The notes beneath the pieces are model-generated. The model had not been told where the DNA came from. It saw only the letters and a list, made by a program, of their open reading frames with translations, and did not search any database. A stretch of 38,123 nucleotides of DNA. Origin: an uncultured Thiotrichaceae bacterium. GTDB taxonomy: Bacteria > Pseudomonadota > Gammaproteobacteria > Thiotrichales > Thiotrichaceae. The number at the start of each line of letters is the position of its first letter. The stretch's first letter is position 1. The stretch is taken from positions 1-38,123 of the forward strand of contig CACVAY010000040.1 of NCBI GenBank assembly GCA_902727985.1, read 5' to 3'. Shown in pieces: positions 5,362 through 20,967 of the stretch. The translations under genes and the position numbers were made by a program.

Positions 5362-7647
5362 TTATGGGGTTACAGCTTCCTTTTCGAAGCTCATACTTAG
5401 TTTATCTTTTTTGACCGTTACGCGAACTGTTCCACCACCATCACTCAATTCTCCGAAGAGAATTTCATCAGCGAGTGGACGCTTTATATTTTCTTGAATG
5501 ACGCGGGTCATTGGACGTGCACCCATTAACGGATCATGGCCCTTTTCTGCCAACCAGCGTTTCGCCTTATCATCAACAATGATAGTCACTTTCTTCTCAA
5601 CTAATTGAGATTCAAGCTTTATCAAGAATTTATCGACGACCGATTCGATCACATCAATATCAAGTGCATTGAACTGAATCACCGCATCAAGACGATTTCG
5701 AAATTCAGGGCTAAACGCACGTTCAACCGCTTTTCCAGAATCCAATGTATGGTCTTGAGTTGTAAAACCCATTGATGAGCGATTGATATTCTCAGCACCA
5801 GCATTACTGGTCATCACCAAAATTACATTACGAAAATCAATCTTACGTCCGTTTGAATCGGTTAATGAGCCGTTATCCATCACTTGCAATAAGATATTAA
5901 ACACATCCGGGTGCGCTTTTTCGATCTCATCCAGTAATAACACAGCATGCGGATTCTTGTTGACAGCATCCGTTAACAAACCACCTTCATCAAAACCAAC
6001 ATAGCCAGGAGGCGCACCAATTAAGCGAGAAACGGTATGACGTTCCATGTACTCAGACATATCGAAACGTAATAACTCGATACCTAGATGCTCAGCTAAC
6101 TGGTTGGTAACTTCCGTCTTACCCACACCTGTTGGGCCGGCAAACAAGAATGAACCGATAGGTTTATGATCTTCACGCAAACCAGAACGAGCCATTTTGA
6201 TCGCGGTAGTCAACTGCTCAATCGCATCATCCTGACCAAACACAACACGCTTAAGATTCACATCAAGACGTTTCAAGATATCCATATCGGTACTAGAAAC
6301 TGTCTTCGGTGGAATACGCGCAAGCTTCGCTACAATCGCTTCAACATCTTTAACAGAAATCGTTTTCTTACGTGAAGAAGCTGATTGTAGTTGGCGATTT
6401 GCTCCGGCCTCATCAATGACATCAATTGCCTTGTCAGGTAAATGACGGTCTGTGATGTAACGTGCTGATAATTCGGCTGCCGCTTTCAATGCAGGATTCG
6501 TATACTTCACACGATGATGACTTTCGAAGCGTGACTTTAGACCTTGCAAAATCTTGATGGTATCTTCAACACTTGGCTCAGCCACATCAATTTTCTGGAA
6601 ACGACGGGCCAATGCATGGTCTTTTTCGAATACACCGTGGTATTCCTTATAGGTTGTTGAGCCAATACATTTTAACTCACCGGTTGCTAGCACAGGCTTA
6701 ATGAGGTTTGATGCATCCATGGTTCCACCAGAGGTCGCACCTGCGCCAATGATGATATGAATTTCATCAATGAATAACACTGCATGTTCTTCTTTCTTAA
6801 TTTGATTAAGCACCCCTTTTAGGCGCTTCTCAAAATCACCGCGATACTTGGTACCCGCAACCAAACCACCTAAATCTAAAGAATAGATAACGGCACTTGA
6901 TAGCACTTCAGGTACTTGGCCATCAACAATACGTTTTGCTAAACCTTCTGCTATGGCTGTTTTACCGACACCCGCCTCACCCACCAACAATGGGTTGTTT
7001 TTTCGGCGACGACAAAGCACCTGAACAGTGCGCTCAACTTCTTCATCACGCCCGATTAGAGGATCAATTTTGCCTTCACGCGCACTCTGATTAAGATTGG
7101 TGGCAAACTTTTCAAGCGGCGACTCTTTACGCTCTTCTTCAGAGTCGGACTCTAGTGAAGCTTCTTCCTCCATATCATCACCTAGCAGGTCTTTTAATGA
7201 GGGTTCATCATCCTCATATTTTTTCACACCGTGTGAAACGAAGTTGACGAGATCTAGACGGGACATATTTTGCTTGGTTAAGTAGTAAACTGCATGTGAT
7301 TCAGGCTCGCCAAAGATGGCAACCAGGATGTTTTCACCAGAGACTTCTTCTTTTCCGGAAGCCTGCACATGATAAACTGCACGCTGGATAACGCGCTGAA
7401 AGCCCAAAGTTGGCTGCGTATCACGCTCATCATCTGGCATGAGGACAGGCGTACTGTCATCAATAAAGGCATCAAGCTCAGTTTGCAAAATGTTGATATC
7501 AATCCCGCAAGCTCGTAATGCATCAGCTGCGCTAGGGTTGGTTGTCATTGAGAACAAAAGGTGTTCTACCGTGACAAACTCGTGCTGTTTGTTTCGTGCA
7601 TCACGAAATAAGGTGTTTATTGAATATTCTACTTCCGAACTAAGCAT
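5362..7647 (-). CDS. clpA: ATP-dependent Clp protease ATP-binding subunit ClpA
   Basis: ClpA is the double-AAA+ unfoldase that feeds substrates to the ClpP peptidase, with ClpS as adaptor. The 761-residue protein has the N-terminal Clp_N domain (about 1-145) and an acidic linker. D1 follows with Walker A GEAGVGKT (about 223-230) and Walker [10 protein letters not shown]2 has Walker A GPTGVGKT (about 504-511) and Walker [14 protein letters not shown]. The ClpP-docking loop seems to be SMGFTTQD, an MGF version of the usual IGL/IGF tripeptide. Two ATGs are adjacent; the second (7647) is preferred because GGAG then lies six bases upstream and the protein begins [10 protein letters not shown] as in ClpA homologues. 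clpP is not in the window. Confidence 0.97.
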
Positions 7648-7780
7648 CATGTACTCCTTCGTTTAGCCGCCTGCTGGCAAAAAATTAAACCCTTAGAGGA
7701 CTTTCTTCTTGTTCCATGGGCATAACACTCGTTACCAAATTTTAAAAGCATTCTTTAAGGACAAGCTATTAAAGACACTT

Positions 7781-8101
7781 TTAATTTTCTTCCATTGTAC
7801 ATAGCAGTGGATGCTCATGCTCTCGGGCGAACTGATTCACCTGAGCCACTTTGGTCTCCGCTATATCACGAGTGAAAATTCCACAGACTCCTTTGCCTTT
7901 GGTATGGACATTCAGCATAACGCGAGTGGCGCCTTCCTGATCCAGTCCAAAGAACGTTTTTAGAACCTCTACGACAAACTCCATGGGGGTGAAGTCATCG
8001 TTTAAAAGTATAACTTTATAGAGTTTGGGTTCCTTGACAATGGGTCGCGATTCTTGAACCGCCAATCCATTATCACCCTGATATTCGGTATCACCTGCCA
8101 T
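7781..8101 (-). CDS. clpS: ATP-dependent Clp protease adaptor ClpS
   Basis: ClpS binds N-degron substrates and delivers them to ClpA. The protein is about 106 residues: a flexible polar N-terminus, then the core fold from [20 protein letters not shown], through the [21 protein letters not shown] segment that forms the N-end-residue pocket and ClpA contact, to a short C-terminus. It lies 133 bases upstream of clpA on the same strand, the usual clpS-clpA order. The start is uncertain by two codons: ATG at 8101, or TTG at 8107, which has better spacing to AAAGG. A stable dyad lies just upstream (8125-8168). Confidence 0.95.
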
Positions 8102-8124
8102 ATTCAACCATTAACCTTTTGCTA

Positions 8125-9678: not shown

Positions 9679-10614
9679 TCATGCCTTTCGAACCGGCGAT
9701 ACAAAACCATCTGGTTTGACCGCGAGTATAGATGACTGAGTGGTTTGCAAAATCTCTTCGGCCGTATTACCTATAAACAAACCTGGTATACCCACCCGGC
9801 CAACCGTTCCCATAACAATGATGTCTGCCTCGATTGAGCTTGCAACCCGATTAATAACGACCATGGGCTCTCCTTTAAGCATATGCACATTATCTTGCTT
9901 TACCTCATGTTCAAATCCAAACAAAAGTTTCTTGAGTCGATCCCGGTGAATCGCTTCTTCTGACTTTAACACGAGTTCTAGCTCGTCTTCAGGAATACGA
10001 AAGCGTCCCATACGAAATGTTGACTCACCATCAAGATGCCAGGCATGTGCAACATCCACTTGCGCATCTTCCCGCTGGGCAAGAGAAACTGCCAATTGCA
10101 TAACCTGCTCATCACAACTGCACTCATACGAAGGCTCAAGCTCGACAGCCGCCAGCACGTGCTCGTAATACCGCTTGGCATTTGGCTTATCAATTAATAC
10201 CGGACATGGACATTTTCGTAGCAGGTGAAGATCATTACCACCAAAGAGGCGCTCACCAAAATCTAATGGTGGTCTGGCGACTTTAATCAGTAAATCATAT
10301 TCTCCAGATTGGACATATTTGATCACTTCAATAAATGGCTCACCGATCAGCACCTTACTGTAGAGAATGCTCTCGTGTTTTTCTAGCCCTTCAATGAGCT
10401 TCTCTAGAGCCATTTTTCGATCCTTTTTTAACATTTCTGTAAAATCGATGTTATGACTGGACTTAAGTTCTCTCGGTGTATCAACCGGTTTAATAACATC
10501 AACCAGTGTTAGGCGAGCCTCGTTTGCCTCGGCAATACTCAGCGCACGATGTAAGGAGGGTGTAGCATCATCCTTGCCATCAACAAAAAACATAATATTT
10601 TTAAAACGTTTCAT
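9679..10614 (-). CDS. Tandem universal stress protein (UspE-like)
   Basis: The 311-residue protein has two Usp domains in tandem (about 1-150 and 155-305), each an alpha/beta fold starting with a beta-strand (FKNIMFFVDG and YEHVLAAVE). The second has the ATP-binding signature MGTVGRVGIPGLFIGNTAEE. Usp proteins bind ATP or other ligands and help in energy stress. The start is the ATG at 10614 (MKRFKNIMFF) with AGGAG five bases upstream; the open frame extends further but overlaps the previous gene. It is the last gene of the antiporter operon, starting 26 bases after the previous stop, so it probably responds to ion or energy stress together with the antiporter. Downstream of the TGA the same frame continues for 21 more sense codons. 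Confidence 0.93.
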   Translation of the reverse strand: MKRFKNIMFFVDGKDDATPSLHRALSIAEANEARLTLVDVIKPVDTPRELKSSHNIDFTEMLKKDRKMALEKLIEGLEKHESILYSKVLIGEPFIEVIKYVQSGEYDLLIKVARPPLDFGERLFGGNDLHLLRKCPCPVLIDKPNAKRYYEHVLAAVELEPSYECSCDEQVMQLAVSLAQREDAQVDVAHAWHLDGESTFRMGRFRIPEDELELVLKSEEAIHRDRLKKLLFGFEHEVKQDNVHMLKGEPMVVINRVASSIEADIIVMGTVGRVGIPGLFIGNTAEEILQTTQSSILAVKPDGFVSPVRKA

Positions 10615-10640
10615 GGAATCTCCTAAACAACATTGAATGA

Positions 10641-12272
10641 TTAGCCCACACCAGCAGATAGCATAGCGATAATCAATAACGCCAGTAATATCAACCAAAG
10701 CAAGCCCTTGGAAATAAGTGAAATACCGCTGTCATCCTGTTGACTGGCCGATAAATAAAAGGGTCTTGAAAAAAACGGAGGGCGTTTTATTCTGCTTCTC
10801 AGATAAACAGGCCATGTAAAACGTAAAGGCTGTACTAGATGATAGAGGTCACCAGGTTGTGTCCATGGCGAAGGCTTAACCGTTGTTGTAAACCATCGCT
10901 TAAGTAATGCATAAATAGTAAGCGCCACAAACAGGATGATAAGACTCTTTAGGTCAAAACCTGTTTCGTAAGGCATAAACGGCCCCCACCATGCCACGGG
11001 GAGCAATAACCACCAGATCACTGTGTGATCAAATGTTTGCTGAGAGACTTGCCGAACAGGCTTGACTGTCTCGTGCTTCACTAAGTAAAGGAAATGCATC
11101 ATCATCAATGCTGAGGCCAGCCCTGCCATCACAAAGAAAGCCGTGAGTCCTTTAGCCGTCGCTTCAGCTAATTCGATCTTGACAGTAGCACCGCCACTAA
11201 AGGGCACAGCAACCATGCTCAAAGACAGAAAGATAATGCCTATTAATTTCAACCTATTGAAACCCCGTTGACGATAATCTGCAAGACCAAGAAAAAGCAT
11301 GGGTTTGAGTAACAAATGATGCATCGCAAACAGGGTTAACGCCGCCAGAATGAGCTCTTTTTGTGCAGGATATACCAATGCATAACCAAACAGAAAACTC
11401 ACAAAGCCCATTTTAGAGACACTTGAATAAGCAAGTACTGCCTTGGCCTCACGCTGCATCATCGCCAGCACAAAGCCCCAAAACACACCAAGAGCCCCCA
11501 ACCACAAGAGAACCTCACCCCATATCTGCATCCCATCTTCCGCCGCGGGCGCGAGAAAACGCATCCACCCCAATAAACCGGCTTTCATCATCGGCCCACT
11601 GAGAACAGCGACAGTAATTACGGGAGCCGCAGTGTAAGTTAATGGTAACCATGGGTGCAGCCCCGGCAATGCCAACTTTATGCCAAAACCCAATAAGATC
11701 AGGGCAACGGCAAGTCCAGGAAAGGTCTGTTCAACTAGATCAGCAAATTGTATGGATCCCACAGCATTGAATAGAATAATCATGCCAGCAAACAGTGCTA
11801 ATTCGCCGACGACTGTAAAGCCAAGGTACACCCTGGCAGCACGTCGTGCATGCTGGCTGGGCTTAAGAATAAGTCCATAAGCTGTTAACCCCATCATGGC
11901 AAAGCCAAGATAGAAGCTGACCATGTCAGCAGCCAAGATCAACAAGAAATTGCCAGCCATCGCCAGCATAAACAGACAGCGATATATCTGCGGAGAAGGA
12001 TGAGCGGGTTTTTCACGAATCATATAGAGAGTCGCGATTATCCAGATCAAACTACTGAACAACAGGAACATCTTTGCTGTTTGATCCAGTTGCCAATAAC
12101 TGCCCAATAACAACCAAGGCAGTTCAAGACTGGCACCCACTGGTACAAGAACTGCCACCACAAAAGCAAAAACAGGAGCCAAGAGTAAAGAACAGGCATT
12201 GCGCATAAAAAGGCTAGTAATACCCAGAACCAGCGGTAACGCGGGGGTTAATGAAAGCAATACATCATTCAT
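10641..12272 (-). CDS. Third NuoL/M/N-type antiporter subunit, lacking the key TM5 glutamate
   Basis: This 543-residue, strongly hydrophobic protein (about 14 membrane helices) aligns along its middle with the two other MrpD-like subunits of the operon. The lysines of the proton path are kept: Lys199 in FGIKLALPGLHPWLP and Lys230 in GPMMKAGLLGWMRF. The segment matching VTLELLGLSAVGL of MrpD reads LGFAMMGLTAYGL, so the usual TM5 glutamate is Ala125. It has a polar C-terminal insert (about residues 460-515) before a last membrane helix. The ATG at 12272 overlaps the previous stop as ATGA and has AGGGAG eight bases upstream. It may be a structural or differently coupled member of the complex; function is inferred. 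Confidence 0.85.
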   Translation of the reverse strand: MNDVLLSLTPALPLVLGITSLFMRNACSLLLAPVFAFVVAVLVPVGASLELPWLLLGSYWQLDQTAKMFLLFSSLIWIIATLYMIREKPAHPSPQIYRCLFMLAMAGNFLLILAADMVSFYLGFAMMGLTAYGLILKPSQHARRAARVYLGFTVVGELALFAGMIILFNAVGSIQFADLVEQTFPGLAVALILLGFGIKLALPGLHPWLPLTYTAAPVITVAVLSGPMMKAGLLGWMRFLAPAAEDGMQIWGEVLLWLGALGVFWGFVLAMMQREAKAVLAYSSVSKMGFVSFLFGYALVYPAQKELILAALTLFAMHHLLLKPMLFLGLADYRQRGFNRLKLIGIIFLSLSMVAVPFSGGATVKIELAEATAKGLTAFFVMAGLASALMMMHFLYLVKHETVKPVRQVSQQTFDHTVIWWLLLPVAWWGPFMPYETGFDLKSLIILFVALTIYALLKRWFTTTVKPSPWTQPGDLYHLVQPLRFTWPVYLRSRIKRPPFFSRPFYLSASQQDDSGISLISKGLLWLILLALLIIAMLSAGVG

Positions 12273-13771
12273 TGACGGTACTCCCTTGAAGCAATTAATT
12301 GCGCCCATTCAAGTGGACTAAAGGGCGCTGCGGCAAACAAACCAATGATTATGGCGATGGTTGCTGTTATGACCGGAGGCCACACCAATGTAGCTTTCAT
12401 TTCCTTATGCCCTGACTTTTTATATTCCTCCAACCACTCAGCTTTAGCAGGTTTGAACCATGCACGATATAGGATAGGCAGGAAATAGGCTGCATTGAGC
12501 AAACTGCTAATTAATAACACGGGGATAACCCAGAAACCTTGTCCTGCCTCTAATGCCCCCACACCGATATACCACTTGCTCACAAACCCTGCCACAGGAG
12601 GAATACCGATCATGCCTAGAGCCGCTATGGAAAACGACAGCGTCGTAGCTGGCATGACCTTGCCAATACCATCCATCTCGCTAACGCAGTGCACATTGTA
12701 TTTTTCCGCATAGTTACCCGCTGCAAAAAACAAGGTGATTTTCATCACGCCCTGATGTACTAGATGAACCACACCACCAATCGTTGCCAACGGCCCTACG
12801 ATGGCAGTACCCAATGCAATATAAGAAACCTGGCTTACTGTTGAATAGGCAAGACGCCGTTTCAGGTGATCTTGCGACAATGCTTTAATCGATCCATAAA
12901 TAATGGTGATAGCGGCAACGGCTCCAAGGAATGGCAGCAAATTCAACGAACTGGCAAATTCGACACCAAAGACATCATAGACCACTCGCACAATACCGAA
13001 AGCACCAGCCTTGACCACGGCAACGGCATGAAGCAGCGCGCTTACCGGAGCCGGAGCTACCATAGCTTGCGGCAACCAGCCGTGCAAAGGAACCAACGCC
13101 GCCTTCACTCCAAGACCAACGATCAACAATAGAAATATCCAACGCAATGCCCAAGGGTCAAGATGAGACATTTCAGCAAGAACACCGCCCTCAACGAAAT
13201 CAAGCGGCCCAGCGATTGTGCGCAACCATACCGCACCTATCAAAAGCAGAATGCCACCAGCCATCGTATAAGCAAGATAAATGCGTGCACCACGCACGGC
13301 CTTCGGTGAACCTTTATGCGCCACTAGAGGATAAGTTGCCAGAGTTAACAACTCATAAAAAATCACGAAGGTGAAAAGATTACCTGCTAATGCCAGCCCC
13401 ACAGTAGCGGTTACACACAAACTAAAAAAGCCAAAGAAGCGACTGCGATGGGGTGTACCTTCAAGGTAACCAATGGCATAAATTGTAGTTACCAGCCAAA
13501 GTATCGCTGAAAGTGAGACGAACAACACTGAAAGCGCATCTGCATGAAGTACCATTTCCATGCCAGGAGCCATTTCCCAACGTACTTCAATGGTTTTTTC
13601 ATGGAAAACACCCCAGATCATTAGACCAATTAGGCCAATTTTAGTCACTGCGCCAAATAGATTTAGCGTGGTGCGCATTCGAATGCTTTCTTCCTTAAGC
13701 AGGAAAATAATCAGACCTGGAAGCAACGAGCTAAGCAAAATCCACAACGGCAATGTGCCAAATATATCCAT
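12269..13771 (-). CDS. Second MrpD/MrpA-N-like antiporter subunit (NuoL/M family)
   Basis: The 500-residue membrane protein (about 14 helices) is a proton-conducting subunit of the complex I/Mrp family. The TM5 glutamate is present at residue 140 in FVIFYELLTLATYPLV, and the TM7 lysine at 223 in VGLGVKAALVPLHGWLP. APAPVSALLHAVAVVKAG is the conserved TM8 region, where the His and Lys pattern leans toward MrpA-N/NuoL and away from MrpD. It may therefore fill the place of the missing MrpA N-terminal half. The ATG at 13771 starts one base after the mrpD stop, with GGGG seven bases upstream. It overlaps the next gene by four bases. Confidence 0.9.
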   Translation of the reverse strand: MDIFGTLPLWILLSSLLPGLIIFLLKEESIRMRTTLNLFGAVTKIGLIGLMIWGVFHEKTIEVRWEMAPGMEMVLHADALSVLFVSLSAILWLVTTIYAIGYLEGTPHRSRFFGFFSLCVTATVGLALAGNLFTFVIFYELLTLATYPLVAHKGSPKAVRGARIYLAYTMAGGILLLIGAVWLRTIAGPLDFVEGGVLAEMSHLDPWALRWIFLLLIVGLGVKAALVPLHGWLPQAMVAPAPVSALLHAVAVVKAGAFGIVRVVYDVFGVEFASSLNLLPFLGAVAAITIIYGSIKALSQDHLKRRLAYSTVSQVSYIALGTAIVGPLATIGGVVHLVHQGVMKITLFFAAGNYAEKYNVHCVSEMDGIGKVMPATTLSFSIAALGMIGIPPVAGFVSKWYIGVGALEAGQGFWVIPVLLISSLLNAAYFLPILYRAWFKPAKAEWLEEYKKSGHKEMKATLVWPPVITATIAIIIGLFAAAPFSPLEWAQLIASREYRQ

Positions 13772-13772
13772 A

Positions 13773-15230
13773 TCAATTCCCCGCCAACGGACTAGCCAGA
13801 TTGACAAAATCCCACATCCAGGCAGAACCAAACCCGAGTACAACAGTTGCAGTTAGCGCAAGAATTAGCGCGGGTATCTCTTCACTGCCTTTAGCCATGA
13901 CTTTGCCAATGCTCTCATCTGGCCCAAAAGCATGTCCCAAAATGCGAAACATATAGCCCGCAGCGAGTAGCGAACCCATAGCAATAACCACAATCCACCA
14001 CCATTGACCCGTTTGAACCGCACTGGAGATCAAATACCATTTACCCAGAAAGCTGCCACTGGGCGGCAGACCAATAAGCGCCACACCTGCCAGTGCAATG
14101 ACAAAAATCGTTAGTGGCAAGGCACGCGCAGTACCGCCAAGTTCGGCGATACGATCATGTCCAGCCCGTTGCAACACTACACCCGAACTCAAAAACAAAG
14201 CGCTTTTGGCAAACGCATGCGTTAACGCAAGTAATAGAAAGGCAGCAAGCGCTGTATTTCTTTCTTCACCAACGGGGAAAGCCATAACCAACGGTATGAA
14301 AATAAAGAGATAGCCGAGTTGTGCCACCGTTGAATAAGCCGCCATTAACTTAAGCCGTTCCGCACGCAAAGCCTGCCAAGATCCCCATACAACAGCTAAT
14401 GCACCTAGCACACCTAACATAAAAGAGGCAGTCGGCTGTAAAACAGGAGAAAAAACATCAAACCAAAGCCTGATAATCAGATATACCGAGACCTTAACGA
14501 CCAAAGCCGACAAGGCCGCACTTACTGGTGCAGGCGCATTGGCATGCGCAGCAGGCAACCAGAAATGCATGGGAAACAACGCCGACTTGATCAACAAACC
14601 TGCTGTCATTAAAGCCAGTGCCAATTGCGCAGCAGGTTCTGCTTCAACGACTGTAGCCAGCATTGCAAGGTCAAGTACCCCATAGGCTGTATAGATTAGA
14701 GCGACACCCATCAGGAAAACCAGCGAGCCCAATAAACCAATCCCCAAATACCGGATAGCAGCCTGTACTGCAGCCCGATTATCACTTAACGCAGTCAAAC
14801 CAACAGCTGACAAACCAAGCAACTCTAGTGTGACATAGAGATTAAACAGATCACCAGAAGCCAACAGCGCGATAAGCGCCACCACCATCATCAGCCACAA
14901 TGGCCAGAACTGCGCTTTCTTGTGTGCATCCGTGAAATATGCACTCGCATAAAAACCGACCATGGTGACGACCAACATGGTCATTACGATAAATAATGCC
15001 GACATGGCATCAACTCTGAGCACAATACCCAGACCATCCTTCCAGCCACCCAGCTCATGAGTAATCGGACCAGATTGATAAACCTGGTAAACTAATGCAA
15101 CACTCGCCAACAGACCCAGAATCGAACCAGCAATCGCAATTGCAGTTCCCTTTTTTGGGAAAACCAGACTGAGCAATGAAGCTAATAAAGGTATGGCAAT
15201 CAGCCAGACAATGGCGTCATTAATCATCAT
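13773..15230 (-). CDS. mrpD: Cation/proton antiporter subunit D (MrpD/MnhD)
   Basis: The 485-residue protein has about 14 membrane helices and the hallmarks of MrpD. Glu136 is in LYVTLELLGLSAVGL and Lys215 in GLLIKSALFPMHFWLP, in the positions of the essential Glu137 and Lys219 of Bacillus MrpD (numbering from memory). ANAPAPVSAALSALVVKVSVY is the typical TM8 segment. MrpD carries part of the proton pathway of the Na+/H+ antiporter in the inner membrane. Two adjacent ATGs (15230, 15227) are possible; both overlap the end of mrpC by 8-11 bases, showing translational coupling. Confidence 0.93.
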   Translation of the reverse strand: MMINDAIVWLIAIPLLASLLSLVFPKKGTAIAIAGSILGLLASVALVYQVYQSGPITHELGGWKDGLGIVLRVDAMSALFIVMTMLVVTMVGFYASAYFTDAHKKAQFWPLWLMMVVALIALLASGDLFNLYVTLELLGLSAVGLTALSDNRAAVQAAIRYLGIGLLGSLVFLMGVALIYTAYGVLDLAMLATVVEAEPAAQLALALMTAGLLIKSALFPMHFWLPAAHANAPAPVSAALSALVVKVSVYLIIRLWFDVFSPVLQPTASFMLGVLGALAVVWGSWQALRAERLKLMAAYSTVAQLGYLFIFIPLVMAFPVGEERNTALAAFLLLALTHAFAKSALFLSSGVVLQRAGHDRIAELGGTARALPLTIFVIALAGVALIGLPPSGSFLGKWYLISSAVQTGQWWWIVVIAMGSLLAAGYMFRILGHAFGPDESIGKVMAKGSEEIPALILALTATVVLGFGSAWMWDFVNLASPLAGN

Positions 15231-15501
15231 AGCTTCGCAATCTCCTTCCGAGTGCCAGCGCCATCGCCATAGCACTCACAGCGACGACAATGCCAGTTAA
15301 CACCAAGGCATGAGGAACAGGATCAGCGGGCAGAGTCAAACCGCGATAAGCAATAGCTACAAAGGTTATGAACACGCCAGCTCCGCAGACATTGAGCGAT
15401 AATAGACGCAACAGCCAGTTATCATGAAGCAAGGCCCCACGCAGACCAATAACGAATACTGCCAAGCCTGCTAGCCCATAAAGTAATTCCTGCAGCATCA
15501 T
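15220..15501 (-). CDS. mrpC: Antiporter subunit C (MrpC/MnhC, NuoK-like)
   Basis: This 93-residue protein has three membrane helices and the NuoK-like pattern, with LLSLNVCGAGVFITFVAIAYRG in the middle and HALVLTGIVVAVSAMAMALALG as the last helix. MrpC is the small subunit homologous to NuoK of complex I and sits between the MrpA/B and MrpD parts. ATG at 15501 overlaps the previous TGA as ATGA, with GGAGGG six bases upstream. It overlaps mrpD by 11 bases. Confidence 0.93.
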   Translation of the reverse strand: MMLQELLYGLAGLAVFVIGLRGALLHDNWLLRLLSLNVCGAGVFITFVAIAYRGLTLPADPVPHALVLTGIVVAVSAMAMALALGRRLRSYDD

Positions 15502-16472
15502 GATGTACCCTCCTCCGTTTTATCAATTTTGACTGCAGACTGCGTTTTTTGTTGAGGCTTCGGCATACCTCCCAGATAGGCTAGCGTCAATGCCGCCGCG
15601 ATAGATAAAGTCGCCGCTGCTTCAATCAACAAAATCAACATCTTTGCCAGCTCCTTGCTGTAAGCCAGAAAATGACCATTGATAAGTAACATTACGATGC
15701 CTGTAATGGTAAACACACCTATTCCGATCACTAATAACCAGCGCATACTTGAATCATTCAGCATGCTATCGACACGGACACCAGTCATCGACATTAAGAT
15801 AAAGGCAGCGGCCAGCATCGCACCGGCCTGGAATGCACCGCCAGGTGCATGCGCTCCTACCCATAACAAATAACCTGACGTTACAATCAGTATCGGAGCC
15901 AGCCACCGCACCATGGCAATCAAAATAGGCTCGCCTTTGCCAAAATCTCGTTGCTTTGTTCCCATCGCCAGCACCACCAACACCGCGGTGAAGACAACCG
16001 CCAGCTCTAGCAAGGTATCGTAAGCTCTAAAGTTGAGCAGTACGGCAGTGACGGGATGACTGACGCCACTTTCAGGCGTTGTTATCAGTACGTTTTCAGC
16101 CAACCTGACACCATCCGAACGCTCAAGCGCATGCCACAACCCCCATGCTAGTAAGACGAATAGAGCCAGAGAGGCTGCATTAATACCCCAAACATAGAAA
16201 CGCGATGTCTCAGACGATAGCGATGTCTGTTCTGTGTAGTCACGCATTGCCTTAAGCAATAACGCACCAGAAATACCCGCGCCAATAATCGCCTCCGCCA
16301 GAGCTAGATCAGGTGCTTTCAAACGAGCCCATATGACGGCTAATAACAAGCCAAATGCCACAAACAGAGTCACGCCACGCTTGATCTCTTTGGTGTTACA
16401 CGTCAGCCATGCCAGACCTAGCAGAATAAACAAAATCAGAATATCGAAACTCAGCAGCAACCAATCATTCAT
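15498..16472 (-). CDS. mrpB: MrpA C-terminal (MbhD/MbhE-like) and MrpB fusion subunit
   Basis: This 324-residue protein seems to join three units that are separate in archaeal Mbh. An MbhD/DUF4040-like N-terminus (about 1-85) contains the conserved RLKAPDLALAEAIIGAG with Glu60. An MbhE-like part (about 95-180) contains VLLNFRAYDTLLELAVV. An MnhB domain (about 190-300) contains GYLLWVGAHAPGGAFQAG. In classical Mrp the first two are the C-terminal end of MrpA. About nine membrane helices are visible. It probably forms the ion-path region between the antiporter subunits. The ATG at 16472 (MNDWLLLSF) has GGGAG eight bases upstream and overlaps the mrpG end by eight bases. The tail is charged and soluble. 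Confidence 0.9.
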   Translation of the reverse strand: MNDWLLLSFDILILFILLGLAWLTCNTKEIKRGVTLFVAFGLLLAVIWARLKAPDLALAEAIIGAGISGALLLKAMRDYTEQTSLSSETSRFYVWGINAASLALFVLLAWGLWHALERSDGVRLAENVLITTPESGVSHPVTAVLLNFRAYDTLLELAVVFTAVLVVLAMGTKQRDFGKGEPILIAMVRWLAPILIVTSGYLLWVGAHAPGGAFQAGAMLAAAFILMSMTGVRVDSMLNDSSMRWLLVIGIGVFTITGIVMLLINGHFLAYSKELAKMLILLIEAAATLSIAAALTLAYLGGMPKPQQKTQSAVKIDKTEEGTS

Positions 16473-16752
16473 TGGGTTTTCTCCCGCGTAGAGCATGGCG
16501 AGCAATAAGGTGCGAAGACACTGAGCTTGCAGCCATTACCAGTAACCAGATCAAAAGCATTTTTAGGCTATTAATCAGATCCGACTCAAGCATGGCAACT
16601 CCGATAGCAACAAACGCCAGCCCCACATTGTCAGCCTTTGCAAGTGCATGCAGTCGAGAAAAAAGATCGGGTAAACGAAGCAAGCCAACACTACCAGCAA
16701 AAAAGAAACAGACCCCGATGAAAATACTTAATACAGCAAGGTAATCAATCAT
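16465..16752 (-). CDS. mrpG: Antiporter subunit G (MrpG/MnhG)
   Basis: This 95-residue protein has three membrane helices and the MrpG core GSVGLLRLPDLFSRLHALAKADNVG, matching the family's RxPDxxxRxHAxxKAxTxG pattern. It is a small structural subunit needed for Mrp assembly. ATG at 16752 lies eight bases after AAGGA; a GTG one codon upstream is also possible. It overlaps mrpF by eight bases and the next gene by eight bases. Confidence 0.93.
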   Translation of the reverse strand: MIDYLAVLSIFIGVCFFFAGSVGLLRLPDLFSRLHALAKADNVGLAFVAIGVAMLESDLINSLKMLLIWLLVMAASSVSSHLIARHALRGRKPNE

Positions 16753-17032
16753 CACTGGTTTCCTTACGCGTTACCGCTACGGTTATAACAACAGCTAGCA
16801 AGGCAAGCACGAGCGCCACATCATAGAGTGCTGGTATATTGAGCAAGAATGCTAGTAGCAACAATAGTGCTGCTCCCCCTGTTCCAAGCAACAGCAAGGC
16901 AGTAAATCGGTCTTCTATATCCGGCCCCACATAGCTTCTGATCAACCCAACAGCCAGTCCGACTAGTAACAATCCCATGGCGATCAATACAGCAAAGTGA
17001 GAGAATGACGTAGTTAAGGCGTCAGCTATCAT
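16745..17032 (-). CDS. mrpF: Antiporter subunit F (MrpF/MnhF)
   Basis: This 95-residue protein has three membrane helices. The conserved GPDIEDRFTALLLLGTGG contains the Asp residues typical of MrpF, and IPALYDVALVLALLAVVITVA is the third helix. MrpF is a small subunit of the Mrp complex. ATG at 17032 has GGAG six bases upstream and overlaps the end of mrpE by 11 bases; the longer frame from 17056 has no ribosome binding site. Confidence 0.93.
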   Translation of the reverse strand: MIADALTTSFSHFAVLIAMGLLLVGLAVGLIRSYVGPDIEDRFTALLLLGTGGAALLLLLAFLLNIPALYDVALVLALLAVVITVAVTRKETSDD

Positions 17033-17525
17033 GTTCTTCTCCAAATAATGCAGCAATCTTGTGCTCCAGACGCTTCAAGCCTTCTAGCGCCCCCCCCTGG
17101 TTATCCAAAATATGAATGTGAATGTGCTGATCTTTAACATCCACACTGAGAGTTCCGGGCAAGAGACTAATACTCCCCATAAAAAAATATCGAGCAGCCG
17201 GGCTCTCTAAACGTATCGGGTAGTCGTAAAAGGTACTTGTCAAAGATAACCTAGGCGTCAGTACCTTGCGACTAACATCCCAAGCCCCCTTGACAGACTC
17301 GACAATGAAATACAGCAGAAAAAGCACCAGACCTTTTAGACGTAGATGCCCTTGCAATTTTGGAGATGCGTTATCCCGTAGCTGCCCCCAGATAGCCCAG
17401 GCAAGCAGAAGAAAAGGAAAACCCACAAGCCAAGAAGACAATTCTCCCTCACTCAGTAACACCCAGAGTCCAAGAAGAGAAATAATCACCGGTATTGATG
17501 AACGTAGTGTTCGGCTGTTGATCAT
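17022..17525 (-). CDS. mrpE: Antiporter subunit E (MrpE/MnhE)
   Basis: The 167-residue protein has two or three N-terminal membrane helices and a cytoplasmic C-terminal part with the diagnostic SISLLPGTLSVDVKDQHIHIHIL. MrpE assists assembly and full activity of the antiporter. ATG at 17525 (MINSRTLRSS) gives a normal family length, though its Shine-Dalgarno sequence is weak (GGCGG); a TTG at 17555 would add ten unconserved residues. Near the 3' end, codons for Gln-Gly-Gly-Ala contain eight consecutive G residues (17090-17097), a slippage-prone run. It is the first gene of the operon. Confidence 0.92.
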   Translation of the reverse strand: MINSRTLRSSIPVIISLLGLWVLLSEGELSSWLVGFPFLLLAWAIWGQLRDNASPKLQGHLRLKGLVLFLLYFIVESVKGAWDVSRKVLTPRLSLTSTFYDYPIRLESPAARYFFMGSISLLPGTLSVDVKDQHIHIHILDNQGGALEGLKRLEHKIAALFGEEHDS

Positions 17526-17936
17526 GCGAAACCGCCATTTCCTTGCTTCACGCAAGTATGACGTCTAAATAACTCAGTAATTCGAGGTAATATATTTTTA
17601 TGGCAGTAATGCCAATCTCTTTTGATAGACATACTGTTAATAAGTCTTATAAAAATAGTTTGATATGAGTTTGTAATTTTCATGGCTAGCAACTTGATCT
17701 CCATGTCACGATGACTAGCCCAAATATATACTATTAATGAAACTAATAATAGATGCAAATCACCACAACAAAAATCGAACTATATTTTTGATATGCTCGA
17801 ATAATACGATTCATTAACATGATATATTATTCGTTTTTTCCGAATTATAAATACGAAATGATCGAATTTTATTCACATAAGGTTTTATACTAGGATCAGT
17901 AGTGCAGGCGTTATGAATAACTTATGGAGAACCAAA
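17526..17936. other. AT-rich divergent gap between mrpE and the DUF533 gene
   Basis: About 410 bases, clearly richer in A+T than the flanking genes. It holds the mrp promoter candidate, a dyad CGAATAATA (17798-17806) with TATTATTCG (17825-17833) followed by six T residues, and further CGAAT copies at 17841 and 17863. A possible -10 (TATACT, 17886-17891) precedes the DUF533 gene. A 78-codon minus-strand frame reading into mrpE lacks family features and is not called. Confidence 0.5.
17587..17615 (-). promoter_or_regulatory. Candidate promoter of the mrp operon
   Basis: On the minus strand TTGGCA (17615-17610) and TATTAC (17592-17587) are 17 bases apart, giving a leader of about 55 bases before mrpE. 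The -35 overlaps the dyad TGGCAGTAATGCCA (17601-17614), which could be an operator. No expression evidence is available. Confidence 0.4.
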
Positions 17937-18545
17937 ATGACTGGACTTAACAATCTACATGAACATCACACCCACGCTACCAACCTAAAAGAAAATCAAC
18001 GCGTTCATTCGTTATCAAAAAACCATGATAGGCACATTGGCCGCCATACATATAGATTTAGCGGTGTAGCTGCAGTAGCGTCTTTAGCTTTTGCTGCATA
18101 CAAGCGATACACAGAGGAACAGGCAAGAGCTTCGGCTTTCCTTCCTGATGGAAGAGATACTTTAGCTTACCGTCAATTAGGGGTAACACTTGCACGAGCC
18201 ATGATCGCCGCAACTCATGCTAGCGGAGAGATGAGCTCAGAAGAGAAAGAGGAGCTTATATCTGAGACACATATATTGGATATTGACAAACAAAGCCAAG
18301 CACTCCTGATAAATGAAATCAATAATCCAGCAAACATTCAAAGTATCGTTGACAGCGCATCTAGCATAGAAGAGGCCGCTGAGATTTATACAACGTCGTT
18401 ACTAGCTATTGAATTCGATAACATAAACGCCCGCAATTACCTCATCATGCTAGGTGCAAAATTGGAATTACCGATAAAGCTAATCTGGGAAATAGAACAG
18501 GAAGTCTATACACAATGGGCCTTTGATAACTTACACGTAGCTTAA
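17937..18545 (+). CDS. DUF533 family protein (YebE-like)
   Basis: The 202-residue protein has a His-rich polar N-terminus (about 1-40, many HH and H residues), a short hydrophobic segment (FSGVAAVASLAFAAYKRY, about 42-59) and a C-terminal helical DUF533/TerB-like domain. Typical features of that domain are TLARAMIAATHASGEMSSEE, AAEIYTTSLLAIEFDN and ARNYLIMLGAKLELP. Function of the family is unknown; YebE of E. coli is an inner-membrane envelope-stress-associated member. The chosen ATG at 17937 has GGAG seven bases upstream, much better than the ATG eight codons earlier. It is divergent from the mrp operon and convergent with the double-AAA gene. The His-rich tail might bind metal, but that is inference. 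Confidence 0.82.
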   Translation: MTGLNNLHEHHTHATNLKENQRVHSLSKNHDRHIGRHTYRFSGVAAVASLAFAAYKRYTEEQARASAFLPDGRDTLAYRQLGVTLARAMIAATHASGEMSSEEKEELISETHILDIDKQSQALLINEINNPANIQSIVDSASSIEEAAEIYTTSLLAIEFDNINARNYLIMLGAKLELPIKLIWEIEQEVYTQWAFDNLHVA

Positions 18546-18783: not shown

Positions 18784-20940
18784 CTAATCAACAACAAAAC
18801 CAATATTCTTAAACTTGCCCTTTTCTTTGAACTCAATCTCACGCTTCAAACCGTCGAGTAAAGAGTTACAATCTAAAGCACCTTTCGAAAAACGATTTTG
18901 ACGAACCACCGTGGCAAAATCACCCGGCGTTAATCCACGTAAAGCACGTACTTTTTGCTCTAAAGAATCATCCTCTAAATGCACACCAAAATCAGCAAGC
19001 ACTTGCTTGTACAATTCCCAACCCTGCTCTGGCTTGATAAAATCAAATTTGATCTTCAAATCAAAACGACGCAATGACGCTTGATCAAGGTTATCCATCA
19101 AATTCGTCGAACAAAGGAAAACACCTTCAAAACGCTCCATTTGCGTCAACAACTCATTGACCTGAGAAATCTGCCATGACTGACTAGCACGCGAACGATC
19201 CTGTAAGAAGCTATCTGCCTCATCAAGAAGCAACACACCCTCTTCATCCATTGCCTGATCAAACATACGCGCAATTTGCTGCTCGGTAACACCCACATAA
19301 GGGTCGAGTAAATCCGAGGCTCTTTTGAGAATCAGAGGCTTATCCAGAACTTCTGAGATATGACGTGCATACTCACTCTTACCGGTTCCAGGTGGGCCAT
19401 AAATACAGAAACGACCCTGCCCACATTTCTGTAAACCATCTTGCAATGACTCTAAATCAAAATCAGCATTCAACACATCAGGACGATACGACAAAGGAGA
19501 CGTTGCTCCTTTTGAAAGATTTTTGTCATAGCCCATCGCATGCAATGTATTACTGATTACACGCTCAAGACTTTGCTCTCGTTCTTCACGTTCCGCCAGA
19601 TCCAATTCACCAACCACTTTTGCAGCACGGGCGATCAAGCCTGGTGCGAGATCTTCATTTAGAGAGACCTTCTTCACCCAACTTTCAGATACACCCAATT
19701 TTTCAGTATGTTGCGAAATGATCTTAATACGTGTTTTACGGGGTGGCGTCTTCAACTCCATCACATAATCAAAACGACGTAAGATCGCCTCATCAATATG
19801 ATGAATCACATTGGATACCCAAATCGCAGGCACTTCATTTTCTTCAAGCACCATATTGAACCACCCCTTTTTCGAATCAGTGCTCGTACGAATACCAAAA
19901 CGTTCCATACTACCATCACGAATAAAGACATCTTCAATTTCATCGAACAGGATAATGGTATCTTGCTTACGCTTTAAGACCTGCTGACACAACTGATAAG
20001 CATCGACACGTCCTTGATACATGATCGCATCTTCATCACCATCAACGGTGGTCACTTCGTATAGTGTATATTTAAGGTCTCTCGCTAGAGTTCTGACTAA
20101 TTCGCTCTTACCCGTTCCAGGTGGGCCATAGATGAGTACATTACTACCCACCAGTGACTTACTGGCAGCGGCATTTAAGTAACGCACCAAAATATCGTAG
20201 TCTTCCTGAATATGCGCAAAATCCTGAGGGACAAGATTAGCCTTTCGACCCGGCATGAAGAAACGCTTCAGCGACTCCATAATGTCCGCTTCTTCCTCAT
20301 CAAGTAAAACATCAGATATCTCATCTAAAATACTGATTTGATATTCTAAATTAGTATGTTCGTCACGCGAAAGACGCACTAACCCCGTCTTGTTCAATAA
20401 GCCTTCACTAGATAAAGCTTGACGAACTTGCGGCACTTCCAAACCCAGAATCGTCGCTAAAACGCTCACAACACTGTGCGAAGAAATATCGCCTAGCACA
20501 TCACAAATACCTTCTAAATCACGGACGCTATGCAGCAAAACACCAAACGCTAACAGGTGCTTTTCAACAGGATTCAGATCAATCAGTTCCGCGAGCTTAT
20601 CAATATTTTTGTAGAGCGTTCCATCATACTTAATCTCTTTTTTAAGATACTTATCATTCTGCTTTAGCAAAATCTTGCGGAACTTCTTTTTGCTTAACTC
20701 ATTATCTTCATCATATTTATCAAGCAGGTTCTCTAACCCAACCGCAGCCAACGCGCGCTCATTACCATATAGACCAAAGGAAATATCCATCAGGGTATAA
20801 CCTTTTAAATCCAGCAAAATGCGTAGCGACCAAAGAATAATGATTTCTTGGTACTGTTCTGTGGGCGATGTAAAACTCTTCGACATATTTTTTAGTTTAC
20901 TTTTAATAGTTGCAGTGATGTATTCGATTGCATTTGACAC
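18784..20940 (-). CDS. Tandem AAA+ ATPase of unknown function
   Basis: The 718-residue protein has a helical N-terminal region (about 1-235) without a recognised domain, then two AAA+ modules. Module 1 has Walker A GPPGTGKS (about 272-279), Walker B IILFDEIED, sensor WVSN and arginine finger region ILRRFD. Module 2 has Walker A GPPGTGKS (about 515-522), Walker B VLLLDEADSF, sensor CSTN and SLRRFD. The pattern is that of Cdc48/FtsH-like classical AAA proteins that remodel protein substrates. No protease, membrane or zinc motif is visible. The start is GTG at 20940 with a strong AGGAGG four bases upstream; a TTG at 20967 is less likely. Function is unknown. It converges on the DUF533 gene. Confidence 0.85.
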   Translation of the reverse strand: MSNAIEYITATIKSKLKNMSKSFTSPTEQYQEIIILWSLRILLDLKGYTLMDISFGLYGNERALAAVGLENLLDKYDEDNELSKKKFRKILLKQNDKYLKKEIKYDGTLYKNIDKLAELIDLNPVEKHLLAFGVLLHSVRDLEGICDVLGDISSHSVVSVLATILGLEVPQVRQALSSEGLLNKTGLVRLSRDEHTNLEYQISILDEISDVLLDEEEADIMESLKRFFMPGRKANLVPQDFAHIQEDYDILVRYLNAAASKSLVGSNVLIYGPPGTGKSELVRTLARDLKYTLYEVTTVDGDEDAIMYQGRVDAYQLCQQVLKRKQDTIILFDEIEDVFIRDGSMERFGIRTSTDSKKGWFNMVLEENEVPAIWVSNVIHHIDEAILRRFDYVMELKTPPRKTRIKIISQHTEKLGVSESWVKKVSLNEDLAPGLIARAAKVVGELDLAEREEREQSLERVISNTLHAMGYDKNLSKGATSPLSYRPDVLNADFDLESLQDGLQKCGQGRFCIYGPPGTGKSEYARHISEVLDKPLILKRASDLLDPYVGVTEQQIARMFDQAMDEEGVLLLDEADSFLQDRSRASQSWQISQVNELLTQMERFEGVFLCSTNLMDNLDQASLRRFDLKIKFDFIKPEQGWELYKQVLADFGVHLEDDSLEQKVRALRGLTPGDFATVVRQNRFSKGALDCNSLLDGLKREIEFKEKGKFKNIGFVVD

Positions 20941-20967
20941 GAGGCCTCCTGCTTTCCAGCCGAGCAA

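Follow-up and report, generated by a model that had tools for sequence, protein, structure and literature searches.

A conserved Mrp-like operon with three antiporter-like subunits, the third lacking the glutamate of transmembrane helix 5, in an uncultured Thiotrichaceae bacterium

The DNA analyzed here, hereafter the window, is a stretch of 38,123 nucleotides from an uncultured Thiotrichaceae bacterium of the Gammaproteobacteria (positions 1 to 38,123 of the forward strand of contig CACVAY010000040.1, assembly GCA_902727985.1), the minus strand of which carries an operon of eight genes related to the Mrp-type antiporters. Besides its smaller components, this operon encodes three antiporter-like subunits, D1, D2 and D3, of which the first two have their key residues intact, while the third, like every other member of its class that we aligned, is devoid of the glutamate in transmembrane helix 5 (TM5). 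We interpret the product as a cation/proton antiporter of the Mrp kind, Group-3-like, whose coupled pumps would be D1 and D2, with D3 as an accessory, uncoupled subunit at the end of the complex, a reading that in our judgment stands at about an even chance of being right. All eight genes lie where a first-pass annotation, made from the sequence alone, had placed them, and each could be identified by Pfam profiles:

17022..17525, minus strand: MrpE/MbhA-like subunit (E), 167 aa; Pfam MNHE, 9e-24
16745..17032, minus strand: MrpF/MbhB-like subunit (F), 95 aa; Pfam MrpF_PhaF, 8e-10
16465..16755, minus strand: MrpG/MbhC-like subunit (G), 96 aa; Pfam PhaG_MnhG_YufB, 1e-24
15498..16472, minus strand: MbhD-MbhE-MrpB fusion, 324 aa; Pfam MbhD, 4e-15, MbhE, 4e-4 (below the cut-off), and MnhB, 1e-15
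15220..15501, minus strand: MrpC/MbhG/NuoK-like subunit (C), 93 aa; Pfam Oxidored_q2, 4e-13
13773..15230, minus strand: D1, MrpD/MbhH-type antiporter-like subunit, 485 aa; Proton_antipo_M; key residues intact
12269..13771, minus strand: D2, second antiporter-like subunit, 500 aa; Proton_antipo_M; key residues intact; a lineage of its own
10641..12272, minus strand: D3, third antiporter-like subunit, 543 aa; Proton_antipo_M; TM5 Glu absent, TM6 acid present, long C-terminal extension

Read from 17525 to 10641, the order on the minus strand is E, F, G, the MbhD-MbhE-MrpB fusion, C, D1, D2 and D3. Adjacent genes overlap by 4-11 bases, the sole exception being D1 and D2, which are separated by a gap of one base.

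The peculiarity of D3 emerges from an alignment of 206 sequences. MrpA and MrpD can dispense with neither the TM5 Glu nor the TM7 Lys (PMC5703873), and the point of coupling between subunits is formed by the TM5 Glu of one and the TM12 Lys of its neighbor (PMC7419157). This Glu is present in all 36 D1 sequences, in 36 of the 37 D2 sequences (with Asp in the remaining one), in every Nuo, Hyf, MrpA, MrpD, Mbh and Mbs sequence included, and in 30 of 30 third subunits of the C15 type, so called after a second operon on contig C15 of the same genome. It is found in none of the 48 D3 proteins of the window type, where Ala (22), Thr (17) or Ser (9) stands in its place; among the kinds of pump subunit compared, only DabB likewise lacks it. 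The TM7 Lys is retained throughout D1, D2 and D3. In addition, all 48 D3 proteins have an acid in TM6 (Glu in 39, Asp in 9; E157 in the window) at the alignment position that D178 occupies in E. coli NuoL, which in the other sequences compared is acidic only in NuoL and DabB. The TM12 Lys is kept in most D3 sequences, and H206, P210 and further positions are invariant in 27 of them. Judged by these residues, D1 and D2 carry the TM5 Glu/TM7 Lys pair of pumping Mrp subunits and D3 does not.

The C-terminal region sets D3 apart as well: 174-235 residues follow the TM12 Lys in most of these proteins, as compared with 214 in NuoL, about 88 in D1 and about 100 in D2. In the D3 of the Sedimenticola type this tail is shortened or lost, and the lysines of TM8, TM11 and TM12 are absent in most. 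AlphaFold predicts a full antiporter fold for the window D3 (mean predicted local distance difference test score, pLDDT, 85). The best structural matches of this model are chains of E. coli NuoL, aligned over 460 residues at a Z of about 40; Mrp and further complex I chains score only slightly lower.

In a tree of 102 sequences, D1, D2 and D3 of the window type form one clade each, with support of 100/100, which excludes a recent duplication of the three large subunits, one of the outcomes that the first-pass annotation had named as fatal to its proposal; they are three separate old lineages. D1 falls among MrpD, MbhH and NuoN, and D2 groups with the C15-type D2, an MrpD-like subunit of the Sinorhizobium meliloti pSymA nuo cluster and a haloarchaeal D2, while the D3 clade is separate and long-branched, away from the C15-type D3. 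Across 32 loci the mean pairwise identity is 64% for D2, the slowest evolving of the three, 49% for D1 and 33% for D3, the fastest. The rapid divergence of D3, along with its loss at one locus, would suit an ordinary Group 3 Mrp without functional peculiarity, in which D3 is just a decaying duplicate. We regard this as improbable, given that D3 has been kept across several phyla with its TM7 Lys, TM6 acid, H206 and P210 invariant, and that its TM5 Glu has been replaced solely by Ala, Ser or Thr rather than by random letters.

A search for relatives, with one genome per species, recovered 38 related loci, of which 36 belong to the window type, the C15 type accounting for the other two (L051, L053). 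The complete order E-F-G-DEF-C-D1-D2-D3 occurs in 29 of the 36, including some in which the fusion is split into two genes and some with a universal stress protein (Usp) gene between E and F; the others are contig ends or partial contigs, plus the variants L030, L032 and L047. In L030, E is relocated downstream. In Pseudoalteromonas rubra (L032:8488-11718), D2 and D3 constitute a single protein of 1076 aa, a natural fusion which supports the adjacency of the two subunits. The operon of Massilia agrisoli (L047:6305-12004) is without D3; by eye, its D2 gene is followed by a Usp-like gene and a P-type ATPase-like gene. On a gammaproteobacterial contig (L024:5195-8538) we also observed a tandem pair of D3 genes, giving four antiporter-like subunits. 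The hosts span gamma-, alpha- and betaproteobacteria, Gemmatimonadota, Planctomycetota and Verrucomicrobiota, and one window-type operon resides on a plasmid of a Rhodobacteraceae bacterium. The recurrence of the same order in 29 of 36 loci from several phyla means that the arrangement is not due to chance, and it bears out the expected conserved association with the third D subunit. Within the window's own class, 15 of 274 genomes have a strong match (at least 115 bits) to the window-type D3 and 53 of 274 one (at least 165 bits) to the C15-type D3, the genome under study being counted in both; D2 adjoins the window-type D3 in 13 of the 14 strong-match loci (L062-L075).

In the arrangement that we favor, E, F, G, the fusion and C would form the cation-handling end of the complex, with D1 located beside C, as is the case for MrpD and MbhH. 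D2 would occupy the place of the N-terminal half of MrpA and make up a coupled proton-conducting pair with D1, and D3 would sit beyond D2 as an accessory subunit. With no TM5 Glu in D3, the usual Glu(TM5)-Lys(TM12) coupling with D2 is impossible, and this coupling point would be missing at the D3-D2 boundary. A functional guide is offered by the structure of DabB2, where Ile151 takes the place of the Glu and a Lys235/Asp185 pair is kept, which has been read as stabilizing an 'open' state, and where restoring the Glu (I151E) halved the growth yield (PMC13144422). DabB and D3 share this ion-pair pattern, with the TM5 Glu absent and a TM6 acid and TM7 Lys present; however, they stand apart in the tree, in which DabB is a single very long branch, and the operon contains no DabA. 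By analogy, the TM7 Lys of D3 probably pairs with its TM6 acid, and the role of D3 might be to cap the end of the complex without pumping or, alternatively, to provide a permanently 'open' route for protons by which the complex is fed or tuned. In favor of an end subunit we counted the long, NuoL-type C-terminal tail, and in favor of an accessory role the lowest identity of the three, the absence from Massilia and the truncation with lost lysines in the Sedimenticola type. More tentatively, and with considerable doubt, we suggest that D3 could be a naturally uncoupled, permanently open subunit, the complex then combining two coupled pumps with one non-pumping proton conduit on which its rate, threshold or stoichiometry depends. 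In the open-access literature we found no such design described for Mrp, Mbh or complex I.

Judging from its neighbors, the operon probably functions in Na+/pH homeostasis during stress. Immediately downstream, beginning 20 bases past D3, is the following gene:

9679..10620, minus strand: two-domain universal stress protein (Usp; UspE-like); Pfam Usp, 6e-36, in two stretches

The UspE NCBIfam profile scores it at 147 bits, under the cut-off of 227. The link to a stress protein suspected in the first-pass annotation proved real, since Usp is also a neighbor in relatives, at two distinct gene positions: after D3 in the nearest ones and between E and F in the Sedimenticola type. A LysR-family gene follows Usp in six relatives, several of them gammaproteobacteria, and D3 itself in a seventh (L023). 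The three such genes that were scored are all NhaR above the curated cut-off, and they end the operons at L016:8173-9072, L017:14085-14987 and L020:14059-15048. In E. coli, NhaR, a protein of the LysR family, activates nhaA, the gene of an Na+/H+ antiporter. By association, then, the NhaR and Usp neighbors support a role in Na+/pH stress.

Several observations weigh against this overall picture. The NhaR gene of the window genome lies on contig C149, away from the operon. Residues 485-522 of the window D3, the linker preceding the last helix, are predicted with low confidence, leaving a bracing helix unsupported in this protein. Conservation of the TM7 Lys in all 48 D3 sequences suggests that D3 still plays some part related to protons. 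The smaller subunits depart from the classical pattern too. In the one solved Mrp from which the assignment comes, the cation-coordinating residues of MrpC, which do not necessarily define the family, are Ser36, His37 and His40 (PMC7419157). The window type has Gly, Ala and Phe instead, and the first and third positions are Asp and His in Mbh and Glu and Asn in Mbs. The MrpE Thr within the TPGT motif (taken as T113) and the Pro of the SPVxxH motif of MrpG (taken as P81), both equated by motif rather than by residue number and both reported to be important in B. pseudofirmus, are Leu and Ser in the window; across the window type, most sequences have Leu for the former and Ser or Ala for the latter. 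With residues of MrpC, MrpE and MrpG replaced in this way, Na+ transport is not assured, and, given the absence of the Ser/His/His set, our claim is that the complex works like an Mrp and is Group-3-like, not that it belongs to a classical group.

These points bear on two further interpretations. The invariance of the TM6 acid and TM7 Lys of D3, the retention of its TM12 Lys in most sequences and its predicted intact antiporter fold could be taken to mean that all three D subunits pump, with the TM6 acid substituting for the TM5 Glu and three protons moving per cation. We think this unlikely: a residue in TM6 does not necessarily point toward the TM12 Lys of the adjacent subunit, DabB2 shares the pattern and has been interpreted as uncoupled and open (PMC13144422), and some relatives have a degenerate D3 or have lost it. 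Of the 'extra proton-path subunits' envisaged in the first-pass annotation, D2 fits the description with its complete key residues, whereas D3 does not; and the loss of the TM5 Glu in 48 of 48 D3 proteins, together with the degeneration or absence of D3 in some relatives, makes a mere gain of 'more H+' not the best reading. The replacements in MrpC, MrpE and MrpG might instead signify that the complex is not an Na+(K+)/H+ antiporter, but one with a rebuilt MrpC-like cation site that moves another cation, or a proton-driven device with a different job; there is a precedent in a review that cites an Mrp with Ca2+/H+ activity (PMC5703873). We rate this as less probable still. The Mbh-type Glu of the MbhD part and the Arg-Asp-Glu of the MbhE part of the fusion (E60; R149, D152 and E156) are invariant in 10 sequences, and the NhaR and Usp neighbors point to Na+ and stress. 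Moreover, the MrpC histidines are also absent in the second cluster of the genome and in a haloarchaeal cluster. The Asp-Arg motif of MrpF is retained.

The gene order is Mbh-like, as had been noticed from the sequence: E-F-G-(D, E, F fused)-C-D1 corresponds to the A-H order of Mbh/Mbs (subunit names as in PMC7419157). There is no gene for a full-length MrpA or an MrpA-MrpB fusion in the operon; the fusion protein replaces the C-terminal part of MrpA plus MrpB, and the NuoL-like part is carried by separate genes. In profile searches of solved structures the fusion matches 6u8y_E, 6z16_A, 6cfw_D and 7qru_A. Its MbhE part scores 20.8 bits against a Pfam cut-off of 27, and the same position in the paralogous fusion on contig C15 is above it. 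The best PDB match of D1 is MbhH (6cfw_H, 1e-54); for D1 and C the nearest solved structures are mostly Mbh/Mbs chains, which also rank among the nearest for the fusion, with Mrp behind, and the Mbh-type Glu in MbhD is a shared feature. Unlike Mbh/Mbs, the window operon lacks the redox module and has D2 and D3 added. This order and affinity, as well as a NiFe hydrogenase gene on contig C140, could hint that the operon is an arm of a redox complex, which we consider highly improbable. In agreement with the first-pass annotation, no redox gene adjoins it, NuoH and peripheral-arm subunits are also absent from the cluster, and no redox neighbor recurs among 46 flanking proteins of the relatives or occurs inside their operons. 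Further, the genome has a Nuo cluster of its own (contig C47), besides a DabA-DabB pair (contig C54).

Among known systems, the classical Mrp of Groups 1 and 2 (Bacillus, Dietzia) share with the window operon homologs of B, C, D, E, F and G and the C-terminal part of MrpA. The window operon differs from them in having no single MrpA, E-F-G in the first place, three antiporter-like subunits as opposed to two, and no MrpC histidines; it fits the description of Group 3, with its irregular order and extra copies of D (PMC5703873). A comparable set was noted in 'Candidatus Nitrospira alkalitolerans' (Daebeler et al. 2020), in whose Group 3 Mrp mrpD is followed by two genes resembling NuoM/NuoL, which the authors took for additional mrpA/mrpD-like genes, and whose cluster includes the bicarbonate transporter BicA (PMC7784846). 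In both that cluster and the window operon the extra genes come after mrpD, and no redox subunits are mentioned for the Nitrospira one.

The second operon of the genome, on contig C15 (L009:6000-15891), is a paralogous three-pump Mrp-like cluster with the order SulP, MoaE, E, F, G, fusion, C, D1, D2, a protein of 88 aa and D3, SulP and MoaE being named by eye. We take BicA to be of the SulP family, and the Nitrospira cluster, compared by description and not by sequence, resembles that of C15. The C15-type third subunit, which belongs to another clade than the window D3 and keeps its TM5 Glu, has its TM7 Lys replaced by Asn in 17 of 30 sequences, including that of the window genome. In the nuo cluster of S. 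meliloti pSymA, the 'green complex I' of rhizobia (PMC9040806), the first MrpD-like subunit groups with D2; however, this cluster belongs to a redox complex and its second MrpD-like subunit groups with the C15-type D3, not the window D3. At this locus (L057:11113-18305) we observed a D2-type gene, a protein of 84 aa and a C15-type D3 in the place of nuoL, as in C15. A haloarchaeal plasmid (L058:7180-15740) has the order E-F-G-DE-B-C-D-D-D. Its MrpE bears about 170 extra N-terminal residues; the idea that these are a fused Usp was dropped, as the stretch has no Pfam or PDB match.

Three-pump Mrp-like clusters are hence already known in outline, from N. alkalitolerans and haloarchaea, and publicly recorded gene by gene, which leaves the idea only partly new. 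What appears to be new is the Glu-less D3 class: no report of an Mrp-type subunit without the TM5 Glu was found in the open-access literature, subscription papers being outside the search.

Elsewhere in the window, ClpA-like and ClpS-like genes, named by eye from their translations, lie downstream on the same strand (5362-8107). Divergent from the operon is a gene for a protein of 210 aa (17913-18545) with no NCBIfam match at 1e-10. At 18784-20967 a large protein is encoded, in which two regions of the AAA-type ATPase kind were recognized by eye. A DUF533 gene is found upstream of the operon in two relatives.

The way in which Glu-Lys pairs couple neighboring antiporter-like subunits is a central open question for both Mrp and complex I. 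The family described here is a natural set that speaks to it, with two intact subunits and a third that is Glu-less wherever it was examined. The relatives also supply variants for comparison: D3 may be single, duplicated, fused to D2, degenerate or missing altogether. Comparing these variants would test whether the TM5 Glu is needed in coupling, and whether one proton moves per antiporter-like subunit.

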